Positions 15,262-36,951 of a stretch of 64,000 bases of DNA are shown piece after piece. Position 1 is the stretch's first letter, and each line of letters begins with the position of its first letter. A program made the translations under genes and the position numbers. This DNA is from Lachnospiraceae bacterium (GTDB lineage: Bacteria > Bacillota > Clostridia > Lachnospirales > Lachnospiraceae): positions 1 through 64,000 of the forward strand of contig JAGAPO010000096.1 of the NCBI GenBank assembly GCA_017623215.1, in the 5' to 3' direction. The notes under the pieces were generated by a model that did no database searches, was not told where the DNA came from, and saw only the letters and a program-made list of their open reading frames with translations.

Positions 15262-15545
15262 TGTGGAAAAAGTGAAACAATGATTTTGTGGATAAATTTT
15301 CTGAAAGTTTGGAGCAATGGACAATTTGAACAAAAACCCCCTGAAAATAGCAGCACTATGGTGAAATGCAGTGGAAAAACAATGTGGATGAGGGAAAAGT
15401 TATCCACATTTAAAAATGCTTGATTTTGAGGAAAAGAGAAGTTATACACGAAGTTATCCACATTATCCACAGTGGATGTGGGAGGATTTTCCACGGGATA
15501 ATTCTTGTCAAGCACGAATGTTTGTTTTGTAATTTGTGTGGAAAC
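15262..15545. promoter_or_regulatory. Cluster of DnaA boxes
   Basis: Five perfect matches to TTWTNCACA lie here: 15262-15270 and 15287-15295 on the minus strand, 15400-15408, 15454-15462 and 15463-15471 on the plus strand, the last two directly abutting. At least five one-mismatch sites accompany them (15370-15378, 15383-15391, 15442-15450, 15487-15495, 15537-15545). An AT-rich stretch follows at about 15590-15730. Such density is typical of replication origins or of DnaA-titrating clusters. No dnaA or dnaN is nearby, so a regulatory cluster like the B. subtilis DnaA-box clusters is more likely than oriC. No gene is supported in 15094-15793. Confidence 0.8.
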
Positions 15546-15714
15546 GACTCAAAAAAGTGGGTCGGGGCAGTACAGCAAAAAGAAAAATATTGTCGGATTA
15601 TATGGGTATATTATCTGCAAACAACGGGTAATTTTCAGAATATTAAAAATCGTTGATAAATTTTGTAAATTATGAAAGAAGTATTAAATCTGCGCGACAA
15701 TTTCATAAATTTGC

Positions 15715-15743
15715 TTGAATATATGGACAAGGTGTGCTATAAT
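15715..15743 (+). promoter_or_regulatory. Promoter of hpf
   Basis: TTGAAT (15715-15720), 17 bases, TATAAT (15738-15743) with an extended -10 TG. It lies downstream of the DnaA-box cluster. Confidence 0.75.
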
Positions 15744-15793
15744 AATATCAGCATAATCATGCATGCGAATAAGACAAGAAGGAGCTGAGGCAT

Positions 15794-16321
15794 ATGCGTT
15801 ATATTATCAGTGGCAAGAATATTGAGGTTACAGAAGGTCTTAAGTCGGCAATTTACGAGAAGATTGGGAAGCTTGAGAAGTATTTTACCCCAGAGACAGA
15901 ACTTCACATTACCTTGAGTGTAGAGAAGGACAGACAGAAAATCGAGGTAACAATCCCTGTGAAGGGCAGCATCATCCGCGCAGAGTAGGTAAGCAATGAT
16001 ATGTACGTTTCGATTGACTTAGTGGAAGAGATTATAGAGAGACAGCTGAAGAAGTATAAGAACAAATTAATCGATCAGGAGCAGGCTGTGCTGAGCTTCA
16101 ACCAGGCGTTCATAGAGGATGAGTATGCGGAGGATGATTCCGTTAATATCACGAGGGTGAAGAGATTTGCAGTTAAGCCGATGGATCCGGAAGAAGCGTG
16201 CATTCAGATGGAACTTCTCGGACACAGCTTTTATGTATTCCGCAACGCTGACACGGATGAAGTGAATGTTGTGTATAAGAGGAAAGGCAATACCTATGGT
16301 TTGATTGAGCCGGAGGTATAA
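15794..16321 (+). pseudogene. hpf: Long-form ribosome hibernation factor HPF, interrupted by an in-frame TAG
   Basis: The two halves are in the same frame: 65 codons (MRYIISGKNIEVTEGLK... to KGSIIRAE), then TAG at 15986-15988, then VSND and the rest from MYVSIDLVEEIIERQL to GLIEPEV. Family members usually read RxEQxSNDMYVSIDL here, so a single CAG-to-TAG change explains the break. Long HPF dimerises 70S ribosomes into 100S particles; its N-terminal domain binds the decoding site and its C-terminal domain dimerises. The C-terminal part could restart at ATG 16001 but has only a weak ribosome site. Sequencing error, true mutation or suppression cannot be told apart here. The start ATG has AAGAAGGAG upstream. 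Confidence 0.8.
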
Positions 16322-21915: not shown

Positions 21916-22108
21916 AACGCGAGAAGATCAGGTATTGCAGCTGCAGAACATTTTCGATGAGACAATACAATAGGTGGATAGAAGACGGTGCGGATCATTT
22001 GGTGAACGCCGATAAGGAAGTATTGAGAACAAACTTGAATAAACTATTTCAAACCGCCGTTTGTATCTGTTCGCACAAGATCGTCATTGCATGGTAGTTT
22101 TGTGCGTC

Positions 22109-22159
22109 AATAAAAATAAAAAGCCGATAATCCACGCTCAATGGCTGTGGGTTATCGGC
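22109..22159 (-). terminator. Terminator of the DUF4180/TetR operon
   Basis: GCCGATAATCCAC (22123-22135) and GTGGGTTATCGGC (22147-22159) form a 13-bp stem with one G-U pair. On the minus strand it is followed by TTTTTATTTTTATT. Between prfB and this element (21916-22108) I see no gene. Confidence 0.85.
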
Positions 22160-22278
22160 CCTGCATCTTTGCGGCTGGATCTGTGATGAATGGTATCATC
22201 CCGAATTTTATTTTGTGTTTTGCTTCTACGGATTGGACACAATATCCACTGAGTATTTTCAACGCAATGTCCGTATCG

Positions 22279-22563
22279 TCACACTCCGCTTAACTTGAAA
22301 ACTGCCTGCTCACAATTTGGCTGAAAAAATATATCCTTGCCGTGATTGTTTTCATAGATAAAATCATTCAAAGGTTTACTGGTGTATTTTGAAAAATCTC
22401 CATAAATCGCAAATCGAACACCATAGTTAATAAATTTTTGGAGAATTTCTCCAGCCAAGCAAGTGCTTAAAACGAAAAAGTCATTGATAATAGCTTCTTT
22501 ATTTAGGGAGATATTGCTGCAACCTGCCGTTACATTGTTATGCTCTCTTATTTCAATTTTCAT
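22279..22563 (-). pseudogene. DUF4180 protein, shortened and probably decayed
   Basis: 94 residues. The C-terminal half matches the family well (LAGEILQKFINYGVRFAIYGDFSKYTSKPLNDFIYENN), but the N-terminal half is some 25 residues shorter than usual and the middle (GCSNISLNKEAIINDFF) lacks the normal sequence, which suggests an internal deletion. It follows the broken tetR gene by 13 bases with a good AGGAGG site, so the two formed an operon. The function of DUF4180 is not known; it is commonly paired with a TetR regulator. Base composition is AT-rich compared with the housekeeping genes around. Confidence 0.6.
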
Positions 22564-22576
22564 ACTTTCCTCCTAA

Positions 22577-23157
22577 TCATTCGTATATATCCTCAACTAA
22601 GCAGTCAACCATATAGTCAAAAACAGCGATATGGTCATAGGGCAACGTATCCTTGTTTTTAATATTCATTATTAAGGCATAGATAATCGAAATTGCCATA
22701 TTCTTATCAACCTTAAATTGTAGGTGCGGTTGGTTCAAAAACAACAGTTGATTTCTATTGTTCGACTGTTGAATTTTTTTGCAACTGCTGGTCTGATATG
22801 TTGTTTGTAAGAAATGTAAAATCCGCACTATCTGATTGATACAGAAAATTATTCTTGTCGTATTCCCGATATACTAATTTTAGTCCTTCAGCAACACCGT
22901 CTTTGTTGTTATGCTTTTCCATAATCTGCGAAGCGGCAGCATATAATTTCTTCTTGTGCGGAACATAGGACCTCGCACAAGAAATCTTCCTTTGACTCAA
23001 AGAAAAGATAAAGAGCACCTTTGGATATGGCTGCCTGCTGACACAATTCATCTATGCTCGTTTTCTTATATCCATATTTCGTCCAACTTTGTTTACAGGA
23101 TTCTATTAGTTTGCTCCTAATTCGTTCCCGTTCCTATTCCGAAAAACTTCTTGCCAT
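22577..23157 (-). pseudogene. TetR family regulator, broken by one stop and two frameshifts
   Basis: Pieces in three frames join into one TetR protein: MARSFSE, then TAG at the eighth codon, ERERIRSKLIESCKQSWTK, YGYKKTSIDELCQQAAISKG and ALYLFFESKEDFLCEV (the helix-turn-helix), a shift near 22930, then IMEKHNNKDGVAEGLKLVYREYDK, another shift near 22785, and IQQSNNRNQLLFLNQPHLQ to the end DYMVDCLVEDIYE. In kin the stop position usually holds Gln, so CAG-to-TAG is likely. It would have regulated the DUF4180 gene. Nothing suggests it still works. Confidence 0.75.
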
Positions 23158-23256
23158 AATGTCCTCATACTCTATGACTGAAAACATTTTAAGTCATAGC
23201 TATTGTAAATTTTTCTCTCGCAATGTCAATAGAAATTGAAAATCGTATAAAAGAAA

Positions 23257-23715
23257 TTGAAAAAATTTCACGCAGCCTTTGGCAAAACCGTCCTTTACAT
23301 GGTTGTAGGCAGTGAACGAAAAAGAGGGTTTGAGACACTTCCAAACAAGCAAAATGCGCAGGAGAATTACCGTATCTTTCCAAATACACAGCCTGCAGTT
23401 ATTGAAGAACAAGTATTTAAGCGAGCACAGGAATTAGGGGTAAACAAACGTCGCCACGCCAAACAAGCGGAACGGCAGGGATTATTCTCTGGACTATTGT
23501 GCTGTGCCAATTGTGGAAGTAAACTGCACTATGCACTTCATCAGAGAAGAAATCTTAAAATTGTTTGTCCGACCGAGAATTTTTGATGTAACGGCAATGC
23601 TTTCTGATGATACACAGGGTTTTCAGAGCATGGTATATCAGCAGAGATTTGTGGGAGCGGAAAAACCAGTAAAACAGGGGAAAAAGAATTGGAACAGGCA
23701 AGAAAACGGAGTGAC
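23257..23715 (+). pseudogene. Large serine recombinase remnant (zinc-ribbon and coiled-coil part)
   Basis: The frame from 23257 to about 23580 encodes NTQPAVIEEQVFKRAQELGVNKRR...LFSGLLCCANCGSKLHYAL, the recombinase domain end and zinc ribbon (CxxC) of large serine recombinases from Tn-type and phage elements. After a frame change, the stretch FIREEILK and then SDDTQGFQSMVYQQRF continues the C-terminal part, and a further shift gives KELEQARKR. The catalytic N-terminal domain is absent. It marks an old integration of a mobile element next to the TetR/DUF4180 relics. Confidence 0.7.
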
Positions 23716-23859
23716 GGTCCGGGAATCCGCGGCGGCAGATGCGTCGCAGTCTGCCCTAAGCATCATATTGCCTCCTGCAGCGATATGATCTTTACGCGAG
23801 AAGGCTGCACCCGCGGCGGCAAATGTGCTGAGGTCTCCTCCAATGCAGGAAAGAGATAA
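23716..23859 (+). pseudogene. Ferredoxin-like piece of a glycyl-radical-enzyme activase
   Basis: In the frame ending at TAA 23857-23859 the sequence GIRGGRCVAVCPKHHIASC...TREGCTRGGKCAEVSSN matches the twin iron-sulfur cluster insert of pyruvate-formate-lyase-type activating enzymes. Two or three cluster cysteines appear changed (CxxC now RxxG and TRGG, CP now SS). It runs on directly from the recombinase coiled-coil segment, so the junction is a rearrangement scar. A separate activase relic lies at 36379-36951. Confidence 0.5.
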
Positions 23860-24013
23860 CAAATTAAAATCAGCAAAATGGGTCGGTGGTTCCCTGTGAG
23901 TGGGATGCGTGTTACGTGTCTGACTTGCTTGGGACTATTTGTATGTTAGGGATGGCTGCGGGGCGTCTAAGCTCTGTTAATCAGGAAAAATGACAGTTGT
24001 GGAAAGAATTATA

Positions 24014-24027
24014 AAAACATATGTTCG
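24014..24027 (+). promoter_or_regulatory. LexA (SOS) box upstream of uvrB
   Basis: AAAACATATGTTCG matches the Firmicutes LexA consensus CGAAC-N4-GTTCG in 12 of 14 positions. It lies just upstream of the uvrB -35 box, and uvrBA is a known LexA target in B. subtilis. Confidence 0.65.
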
Positions 24028-33436: not shown

Positions 33437-33826
33437 ATTCGTCTAAGTAATCAAAAGGCTCCTGTGGATAAACCTTTGCCCAGATTTAGTGGGTATCAAG
33501 CTCCGGATATTGGTAACGCCAATCATCATATTCCTCTTTGGTGCTTTCGCCGCTCTCCAGCTTCTTAGCTTCGGCGAGCCATGCACGGAGCATCTTATCC
33601 AGAAAGGAATAGGTGGAATGGTCGGACTTGTCCAAGCGCAGATACACTTCCCCATCCACTTCACTTATTTTCAGTCCATACATATCTTCCAATGCGAAAA
33701 AGGTGTGCATAAGGCCAATATAGGTATCGATATCTGGCACGGTAAGCGCATGGGTGCTGACATCAAGGAAATGAGCTATGTTTTTTACAAGCTCCTGCTT
33801 TGGTACTACTGCTTCAGACTCATACT
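33437..33826 (-). pseudogene. XRE family regulator relic without its DNA-binding domain
   Basis: The frame reads YESEAVVPKQELVKNIAHFLDVSTHAL, then IDTYIGLMHTFFALEDMYGL and ESTKEEYDDWRYQYPELDTH, the C-terminal part of clostridial helix-turn-helix regulators. A TAA interrupts it after DTH (33486-33488); the frame continues as IWAKVYPQEPFDYLDECAKK into the IS element. The N-terminal helix-turn-helix is missing and upstream sequence has stops in all frames. It is a dead fragment cut by the insertion. Confidence 0.65.
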
Positions 33827-34191
33827 TTGCTTAACTCAAAATGTTTGGTGTCATATAAAACAGAAAACTAAAACAAATAAAGTAGTACGGAGTGAAATGA
33901 TCTGCATTTTTAAAATTATCTAATGCAAAATAATTGTTGTTATGATATAATTAAGTCGGAATAGACAAATTGGAAACCTTGAATAAACGCAGAAAGGACG
34001 TGACAGCTATGTACAGAAAAATAGACGTAGCATGGCACAGGCTGTTTTGTTAGTATGTCTTACTGTAAGGTCTGCAAATTATACAAGTATATCCGACAAA
34101 CTCTGTTGATAGAAGGGGGTTTTTTGTTTGTCTGCATGTAAACAATACTGATATTTATATGAAAACTATTATGATTTGGAGGTTTATATTT
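33827..34191 (+). other. Region upstream of the branching enzyme
   Basis: AT-rich. It holds a -10-like TATAAT at 33946-33951 without a good -35, and a 14-codon frame at 34009-34053 (MYRKIDVAWHRLFC) preceded by AAAGGACG, which could be a leader peptide or chance. A run GGGGGTTTTTTG at 34117-34128 has no matching stem. Confidence 0.35.
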
Positions 34192-36198
34192 ATGAAAAAG
34201 AATTACTTAAGAATTCTGGATATTGACCCATATCTGCATTCTTACGAAAAGGATTTAATTCTTCGAATGGATAACTATACTCGGAAGAAAGAGGAGTTGA
34301 TTGGAAAAAAAGGTAGACTATCAGCTTTCGCTAATGGTTATAAGTATTTTGGTTTTCATAGAACCAGAACTGGCTGGGTCTACAGAGAGTGGGCACCTGC
34401 TGCAGAAGCTATATACCTCACCGGTGATTTCAATGAATGGAATAGCCGGAGTCACGCTATGACAGCTCTGGACAACGGTGTATGGGAGATAGAGATAAAG
34501 GGCAAGGATACATTAAAGCCTGGACAAAAGATACAGGCTTTAATCATCCATAATGGTAAAGAGCTTCGCCGTATTCCAACCTACGCTACTCGTGTAGTGC
34601 AGGATCCTGACACTATCTTGTGGTGTGCCGAGATTGAGGACACTATGAAGTCATACCCTTGGACGGATAAAGATTTCGTACCAGAGAAGACTCCGTTTAT
34701 ATATGAATGTCACATCGGTATGGCTCAGGAAAAGTATGGAATAGGCACCTATGAGGAGTTTAAGAATAATACACTTCCTCGTATCAAGGAACTGGGTTAT
34801 AACACGATCCAGATAATGGCTATCATGGAGCATCCTTACTATGGTTCATTCGGATATCAGGTATCTAACTTCTTTGCTGCGTCTTCAAAATATGGCCGTA
34901 GCGAGGAACTTAAGGCACTGATAAATACAGCACACGAGATGGGGATTGCAGTACTCTTAGATGTCGTCCATTCGCACGCAGTTAAGAATACGAATGAGGG
35001 AATCAATGAATTCGACGGCACTGTATATCAATTTTTCCATGATGGTGAAAAAGGCAACCATAGCGCATGGGGGACTAAGCTATTCAACTACGGCAAGAAT
35101 GAAGTTCTTCACTTCTTGCTGTCTAACCTAAAATATTGGATGGAGGTATTTCATTTTGATGGTTTCCGCTTTGATGGCGTTACATCCATGATCTACCATG
35201 ACCACGGACTTGGCAGTGCATTCTGCAACTACGATATGTACTTCTCCATGAATACAGATACAGAGGCAGTTACATATCTGCAGCTTGCCAACGAGTTAAT
35301 CCACCAGATTAATCCCAATGCCATAACAGTAGCAGAAGATATGTCAGGTATGCCGGGTATGTGTATCCCAATAAAGGATGGCGGGATAGGCTTCGACTAT
35401 AGATTATCTATGGGGGTTCCGGACCTGTGGATAAAGATAATAAAAGAGTATAAGGATGAGGAATGGGATATGAATAAGCTCTGGAATGAGCTTACCAGTC
35501 GCAGACCAATGGAGAAGAATATTGGCTACTGCGAGTCTCACGATCAGGCTCTCGTAGGAGACAAGACAATCATGTTTCGCCTATGCGACGCAGAGATGTA
35601 CACAGCTATGAATAAGTTTGGGGCCAGTATGACTATAGATCGTGGTATCGCTCTCCACAAGATGATACGATTGCTCACCGCCTCATTGGCCGGAGAGGGT
35701 TATCTTAACTTCATGGGTAATGAGTTTGGACACCCAGAGTGGATAGACTTTCCAAGAGAAGGCAATGGTTGGAGTTACCACTACTGCCGCAGACAGTGGA
35801 GTCTCGTTGATAATGATGGACTGCGTTATGTAGAACTAAACGACTTCGACAAAGCGATGGTAAAGCTGCTAAAAGAAAACGAGCTCTTAACCCAGCATCC
35901 GGTAAATAGGTGGATACATCAAAATGATAAGATTATTATCTACACCAAGCAGGATTACGTGTTCGCATTTAACTTCCATCCTTACAAGTCCTTTGAGGGA
36001 TATTTTATCCCAGTGGGTAATGAGAACGCTGGCAGATATCAGATGGTGCTCTCAACGGATGATGGTGCATTCGGGGGCTTCCAGCGTACAGATGCCAGCG
36101 TTCAGTATGATGCATATACTACGGATGCAAATTGGACAGGATTTAACTGTTATTTGCCCTCTAGAAGTGCAGTAGTATTTAAGAGAATTGATAAGTAA
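34192..36198 (+). CDS. glgB: 1,4-alpha-glucan branching enzyme, GH13_8 (eukaryote/Bacteroides-like) type
   Basis: 668 residues. An N-terminal CBM48 domain (YREWAPAAEAIYLTGDFNEW), the GH13 barrel with nucleophile Asp328 (GFRFDGVTSMIY), acid/base Glu382 (VAEDMSGMPG) and Asp451 (CESHDQALVGDKT), and a C-terminal beta domain. The phrases DGVTSMIYHDHG and ESHDQALVGDKT are closest to eukaryotic and Bacteroides enzymes (subfamily GH13_8), not the usual bacterial GlgB (GH13_9). ATTTGGAGG precedes the ATG 34192; an upstream in-frame start at 34159 has no site. Codon use (aaa/aag mix, ata, cgt) is more AT-rich than the housekeeping genes, and relics flank it, suggesting transfer. Confidence 0.9.
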   Translation: MKKNYLRILDIDPYLHSYEKDLILRMDNYTRKKEELIGKKGRLSAFANGYKYFGFHRTRTGWVYREWAPAAEAIYLTGDFNEWNSRSHAMTALDNGVWEIEIKGKDTLKPGQKIQALIIHNGKELRRIPTYATRVVQDPDTILWCAEIEDTMKSYPWTDKDFVPEKTPFIYECHIGMAQEKYGIGTYEEFKNNTLPRIKELGYNTIQIMAIMEHPYYGSFGYQVSNFFAASSKYGRSEELKALINTAHEMGIAVLLDVVHSHAVKNTNEGINEFDGTVYQFFHDGEKGNHSAWGTKLFNYGKNEVLHFLLSNLKYWMEVFHFDGFRFDGVTSMIYHDHGLGSAFCNYDMYFSMNTDTEAVTYLQLANELIHQINPNAITVAEDMSGMPGMCIPIKDGGIGFDYRLSMGVPDLWIKIIKEYKDEEWDMNKLWNELTSRRPMEKNIGYCESHDQALVGDKTIMFRLCDAEMYTAMNKFGASMTIDRGIALHKMIRLLTASLAGEGYLNFMGNEFGHPEWIDFPREGNGWSYHYCRRQWSLVDNDGLRYVELNDFDKAMVKLLKENELLTQHPVNRWIHQNDKIIIYTKQDYVFAFNFHPYKSFEGYFIPVGNENAGRYQMVLSTDDGAFGGFQRTDASVQYDAYTTDANWTGFNCYLPSRSAVVFKRIDK

Positions 36199-36234
36199 AT
36201 AGGGTACATGCATAAAAGTATTTTTAGAGGTTTG

Positions 36235-36260
36235 AAGGGGCGATTTCTCGCCCCTTTATC
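36235..36260 (+). terminator. Terminator after the branching enzyme
   Basis: AAGGGGCGA (36235-36243) and TCGCCCCTT (36248-36256) with a 4-base loop, then TTATCC. Confidence 0.8.
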
Positions 36261-36378
36261 CTTCCTCCCGTAAGTCCATTCTGTATGCTGTCTGTCAGTT
36301 CCTTTTTGATACCTATGCCAGTACGGACAGACGGTGTTGCTTTAAGACTGTTTTTCGGACCACGTATGTTTTCTTATA

Positions 36379-36951
36379 TGCCTTAGGCGAGAAAGAGAAT
36401 TATGTATTGCTTGCAGGAAGTACGCGGAGAAATGCTTAGGTGCCGCTTTAACCTTTTATGGAAGAGAGGTATCTGTGGAGGACTTATTGCCAATGCCATT
36501 GGAGGATAAAGACTTCTATGAAACAAGCGGCGGTGGAGTGACTCTATCGGGAGGCGAGTGTCTCTGTCAAGCAGATTTTTGCGCAGAAATTAAAAAAAGG
36601 CTGAAGGAAGAAGGAATCAGAACTGCAATTGACACCTGCGGTTTTGTGCCGAAAGAAAGTATTGATAAGGTTATTCCCTATACAGATATTTTTCTTTACG
36701 ACATTAAGGCCATAGAGGAAGAGATACATATTAAATGTACAGGCCGGTCAAACAAGCTAATCATCGAGAATCTTAAGTATATTGATGATTGTGGAAAAAG
36801 TATCCAAATTCGCATTCCTTATGTCCCTGGATACAACTCGGATCAGATTGACAAAATGATAGAGAGTATGGAGGGACTTAAAAACCTTACTAAGGTGCGG
36901 GTTCTAACTTACCATAAGCATGCAGGGTTAAAATATTTAACTGGGCGGCAG
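36379..36951 (+). pseudogene. Glycyl-radical-enzyme activating protein, truncated relic
   Basis: The frame reads RERELCIACRKYAEKCLGAALTFYGREVS (second iron-sulfur cluster with one Cys changed to Tyr), then LSGGECLCQADFCAEI, AIDTCGFVPKE, DIFLYDIKAI and VRVLTYHKHAG, the C-terminal radical-SAM barrel of PFL-type activases. The N-terminal part with the radical-SAM CxxxCxxC is missing; upstream sequence has stops. After about 36951 the sequence no longer resembles the family, though the frame stays open to 37128. No glycyl radical enzyme gene is near. Confidence 0.7.

Follow-up and report, generated by a model that had tools for sequence, protein, structure and literature searches.

A rigidly spaced DnaA-box array outside oriC, often upstream of hpf, as a candidate DnaA-control element in Lachnospiraceae

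The closest described systems are found in Escherichia coli and Bacillus subtilis. The E. coli loci datA, DARS1 and DARS2 are short intergenic arrays of DnaA boxes with fixed spacing and an IHF/Fis site, and they act on the availability or nucleotide state of DnaA (PMC10950094, PMC13220808). Two articles state that B. subtilis has six DnaA-box clusters outside oriC, the loss of which leads to early initiation (Okumura et al. 2012, cited in PMC13220808, PMC5295017), and describe the six as redundant titrators. B. subtilis is stated to lack datA and DARS, and the regulators of its DnaA nucleotide state are given as unknown in a 2026 review (PMC13220808). Our literature search found no paper pairing DnaA boxes with Lachnospiraceae, or DnaA with hpf-mediated hibernation, and none describing an element like the one presented below.

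The locus described here lies in a Lachnospiraceae genome (GCA_017623215.1), at positions 15262-15545 of a 64,000-nucleotide stretch of contig JAGAPO010000096.1, which we call the window. A first-pass annotation, made from the letters of the window, had reported a dense cluster of DnaA boxes here and proposed that DnaA might link replication to hpf. The cluster is real, outside oriC and conserved; the link to hpf is not supported as a core function, and the annotation missed both the fixed geometry of the boxes and the GTTTTGT motif paired with them. We infer, with moderate confidence, that a conserved DnaA-control element, mostly present in one copy and located outside oriC, is embedded in the cluster; it would bind DnaA and act in the control of replication.

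Within 15262-15545, five sites match TTWTNCACA exactly, at 15262 (-), 15287 (-), 15400 (+), 15454 (+) and 15463 (+), the last two abutting each other as the annotation had said; where it had counted at least five one-mismatch boxes, we count six, at 15370 (-), 15383 (-), 15427 (-), 15442 (+), 15487 (+) and 15537 (-). Its expectation that chance density would be far lower is borne out: shuffled sequence gives 4.2 +/- 2.0 exact sites where the whole window has 14, and no 284-bp interval lying more than 400 bp away from the cluster contains more than two. The neighbouring AT-rich stretch is also present, downstream of the boxes (15546-15760, 70% AT vs 52% for the window). Pattern searches of the genome found 80 TTATCCACA sites in 3.31 Mb and 7 matches to the reversed-pattern control. 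The densest group of TTATCCACA sites in the genome is this cluster, with four in 185 bp (expectation at the genome's own rate about 1e-6 per genome); the next densest, with three each in 161-207 bp, are the dnaA region, with which the annotation had suggested comparing it, a site between murC and dnaD, and a site near pgi. Four further exact TTWTNCACA sites occur at window positions 33463-36798, in a low-GC stretch (about 39-42% GC).

Two of these other groups lie outside oriC. One (L038 5482-5704; G000:C72:27481-27703) is situated between murC and helicase-loader genes (dnaD-like and dnaI/IstB-like). Many relatives carry it at this place too, often in the form of two pairs of abutting boxes with 140-190 bp between the pairs; this recurrence suggests that the DnaA sites outside oriC form a small conserved set in Lachnospiraceae. 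The other (L037 4649-4888; G000:C36:72648-72887) lies inside a 372-aa open reading frame without a Pfam match, upstream of pgi, and several relatives also have a part of it (TTATCCACAAAGATATCCACATTATTNACA).

An alignment of 131 hpf upstream regions from relatives reduces the cluster to a conserved core of four same-strand boxes, starting at 0, +42, +54 and +63, flanked by accessory boxes and followed by a second motif:

15262-15270, reverse strand: accessory DnaA box TTTTCCACA, an exact TTWTNCACA match outside the conserved array
15287-15295, reverse strand: accessory DnaA box TTATCCACA, an exact match, conserved, within the sample, in this genome only
15383-15391, reverse strand: accessory box TCATCCACA, with one mismatch, 17 bp before box 1
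15400-15408, forward strand: DnaA box 1, TTATCCACA, an exact match; 69 of the 131 hpf loci have this box 51-54 bp ahead of box 3
15442-15450, forward strand: DnaA box 2, degenerate TTATACACG, at +42 from box 1; consensus of the aligned relatives TTATACAC
15454-15462, forward strand: DnaA box 3, TTATCCACA, an exact match, conserved, at +54 from box 1
15463-15471, forward strand: DnaA box 4, TTATCCACA, an exact match, conserved, abutting box 3
15505-15533, forward strand: possible promoter, TTGTCA-17-TGTAAT, overlapping the motif below; a weak candidate read from the sequence
15515-15530, forward strand: conserved half-palindrome CGAATGTTTGTTTTGT, whose GTTTTG begins 52 bp past box 4 and to which a second protein probably binds

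The consensus of the array is AGTTATCCACA-N30-AGTTATACACnnAGTTATCCACATTATCCACA, that is, AGTTATCCACA, about 30 bp, and then AGTTATACACnnAG-TTATCCACA-TTATCCACA. With up to four mismatches allowed, the three-box geometry was present in 69 of the 131 hpf loci, whereas the best control matches had nine mismatches (reversed sequence) and six (opposite strand). In 47 of these loci boxes 1 and 3 are 53 bp apart, and in the remainder 51-54 bp; across species the box starts fall at 0/41-42/53-54/62-63. The four boxes keep a fixed, helically phased spacing. In f68, another family of the class, box 1 and box 3 are 42 bp apart, about one helical turn less. Measured over the 74 species loci that offered enough sequence, the density of exact boxes is about 118-fold higher in the 600 bp upstream of hpf than in the DNA on either side. 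In G001 and G002, the other members of the genus, each a separate species, an exact TTATCCACA box occupies the place of the accessory box at 15383.

The motif 3' of box 4 reads (C/A)(G/A)AAnRnnYGTTTTGT, also written CGAAnRnnYGTTTTGT. Of 100 distinct arrays, 76 have GTTTTG beginning 49-53 bp after box 4 or, in a few cases, about one turn closer, at 38-41 bp. Of the 23 arrays that have no hpf downstream, 17 have it at those distances; the motif is missing from about a quarter of arrays. In two other families, f68 and f45, it stands at 23 bp and takes the form of a perfect palindrome, ACAAAACAnnTGTTTTGT; in 8 of 8 genomes of these families the palindrome occurs exactly once, adjoining the array. 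This implies a protein with essentially a single such site per genome. We found no paper on ACAAAACAnnTGTTTTGT in our literature search. Judged by sequence, the fixed geometry and the paired GTTTTGT motif set the array apart from an ordinary DnaA-box cluster.

Compared with the LexA operator core, GAAC-N4-GTTC/T, the motif does not conserve the fifth base (C). A canonical LexA-like box, GAACATATGTTT, occurs at window positions 24015-24026 on the reverse strand, upstream of uvrB (start 24214). The stretch between prfB and uvrB (22000-24000), which has low GC, no skew and recombinase-like fragments, is probably a decayed mobile element. The half-palindrome form GAAYNNNNGTTTTGT was uninformative as a regulon marker in this genome (6 matches vs 2 for the control). 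The TGTCA of the possible promoter at 15505-15533 is conserved in about half of the sample.

Of 248 Lachnospiraceae genomes, 179 contain a looser three-box core pattern (3 control matches in all), as do 101 of 293 genomes sampled from the class as a whole (0 control matches). About 28% of the family's genomes gave no match at this stringency, and the element is therefore dispensable, diverged or unassembled in some of them. Some extra matches per genome fall in other clusters, so a single copy is usual but not an established rule. In nine well-assembled genomes the array lies between 86 kb and about 1.06 Mb from dnaA, with neither a fixed distance nor a fixed arm; its boxes are on the leading-strand side in eight of the nine, the exception being G070.

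In this genome, the array is followed by hpf:

15715-15743, forward strand: likely sigma-A promoter of hpf, TTGAAT-17-TATAAT, read from the sequence, 244 bp after box 4
15794-15988, forward strand: N-terminal part of hpf, cut at codon 65 by TAG; the remainder is the open reading frame 16001-16321

The annotation was right to place the cluster in front of the hpf promoter and to suggest looking for it upstream of hpf in relatives, where the array is present in 69 of 131 sampled loci, as well as in other families of the class; the hpf neighbourhood is therefore probably the ancestral address. Between the array and the promoter, at window positions 15630-15644, lies AATTTTCAGAATATT, a CodY-box-like sequence with one mismatch to the CodY box. 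An Rfam search for structured RNA gave nothing over threshold, and a conserved leader RNA downstream of the array is unlikely because the DNA there differs between contexts.

The separated state, INDEPENDENCE from hpf, was found in at least 11 genomes (G007, G012, G015, G017, G028, G029, G030, G032, G034, G037 and G059), each of which has an hpf gene without an array and one copy of the same geometry elsewhere. The motif is kept at 49-52 bp in the separated arrays except those of G037 and G059. Their neighbours include trmB, a DUF1858-like gene, an alpha-galactosidase gene and ABC-transporter genes. In G032, G017 and G023 the array is followed by a gene convergent to it. The nearly closed genomes G229 and G263 also have the core pattern far from hpf. 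On a tree of HPF, the separated state requires about five changes, of which at least three are forced by well-supported (starred) branches, so separation has occurred at least three times independently. An array close to a contig end was not counted as separated if hpf might lie past that end and none was found elsewhere (L211 and L218); L204 (G029, near a contig end) was counted because its hpf sits on another contig without an array.

These observations bear on the annotation's own explanation, in which DnaA bound to the array would act as an activator or repressor of hpf and thereby tie ribosome hibernation to the state of replication. About half of the sampled genomes, and other families of the class, do have the array ahead of hpf, nearly always facing the gene, and a separate hpf promoter stands 244 bp downstream, but the element persists with its spacing and motif where hpf is elsewhere, and the hpf genes in question have no array. 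The array can also be inverted relative to hpf, pointing away from it (G202), or have only convergent genes downstream, and the boxes lie at a variable 160-510 bp from the start codon. Moreover, the array is perfect in the present genome although hpf carries a premature stop: relatives have an intact hpf of 174-184 aa, with CAG (Q) in the genus where this genome has the in-frame TAG (15986-15988), and the C-terminal domain PF16321 falls in the open reading frame 16001-16321; hpf here looks truncated, unless the stop at 15986-15988 is a base error. We consider this explanation unlikely. Since the array survives at other places, mostly with its motif and spacing intact and sometimes with no gene downstream, comparative evidence indicates that hpf regulation is not its conserved job; a role in hpf regulation is possible where the gene adjoins the array, because many genomes, other families included, have hpf downstream of it.

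Far less probable is a backup or ancestral origin, or a helicase-loading or restart site, at which the array would open DNA or load helicase as oriC does. The boxes are as good as those of oriC, AT-rich DNA lies downstream, and the array is helically phased, but GC skew changes sign across dnaA (-0.187 to +0.177) and not across the array (+0.152/+0.127), a check that the annotation had recommended. No DnaA-trio run of three follows box 4, and one is present in the dnaN-dnaA gap. As the annotation had noted, the cluster lies away from any dnaA gene: dnaA is on another contig, C65, and encodes a standard DnaA that aligns over almost its full length, DNA-binding domain included, with a solved bacterial DnaA (8btg). 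The oriC of the same genome (dnaA region, C65:8693-8955) resembles the array in having several TTATCCACA boxes at comparable density, but its boxes are in mixed orientations, with no abutting exact pair and no GTTTTGT motif, and it alone of the two has a GC-skew switch. Having neither skew switch nor trios, the array was rejected as oriC or a secondary origin; the geometry was likewise missing from the scanned dnaA-region loci (best match 4 or more mismatches), and it was rejected as a copy of oriC.

A chromosome-organization or sporulation-checkpoint site, marked by DnaA together with Spo0A or another regulator, is just as improbable. In its favor, putative 0A-box-like sites (TTCGACA/TGTCGAA) downstream of the motif are enriched (10 of 76 arrays vs 0.5 expected) and the boxes have a leading-strand bias; against it, these sites are in a minority of arrays and the locus has no fixed chromosomal position.

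We favor a reading in which the array is probably devoted to the control of DnaA, as a type of site undescribed for these bacteria. DnaA would load on box 1 and on the block of boxes 2, 3 and 4 as an ordered, cooperative oligomer; a predicted dimeric partner protein at the GTTTTGT motif would set when this complex forms or what it does; and the complex would adjust the amount or nucleotide state of the DnaA available to oriC, in parallel with datA and DARS of E. coli or with titration by the B. subtilis clusters. Any effect on hpf would be secondary. More tentatively, and with less than even confidence, the array may be a DnaA-remodelling locus of the DARS/datA type in Firmicutes: a usually single-copy ordered array that would set initiation timing across Lachnospiraceae and other Clostridia, working together with a dedicated protein that binds the palindrome and has essentially a single target in each genome. 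Compact, deeply conserved and furnished with a predicted partner site, the element would offer a handle on DnaA tuning in dominant gut bacteria; the array could be used as bait, deleted or moved, and the motif should help to isolate a new regulator of replication.

The annotation's comparison with the B. subtilis clusters was apt: several boxes stand close together outside oriC in a Firmicute, and may bind DnaA away from the origin. Unlike those clusters, the locus is one element, mostly single copy, with fixed spacing, strand and partner motif, conserved both within the family and outside it, and it retains its form where it has moved. Like datA and DARS, it is a short intergenic DnaA-box array whose spacing is fixed across species, accompanied by a candidate site for a second protein, here recognized from sequence alone; unlike them, with their IHF and Fis sites, its conserved partner motif is the GTTTTGT palindrome.
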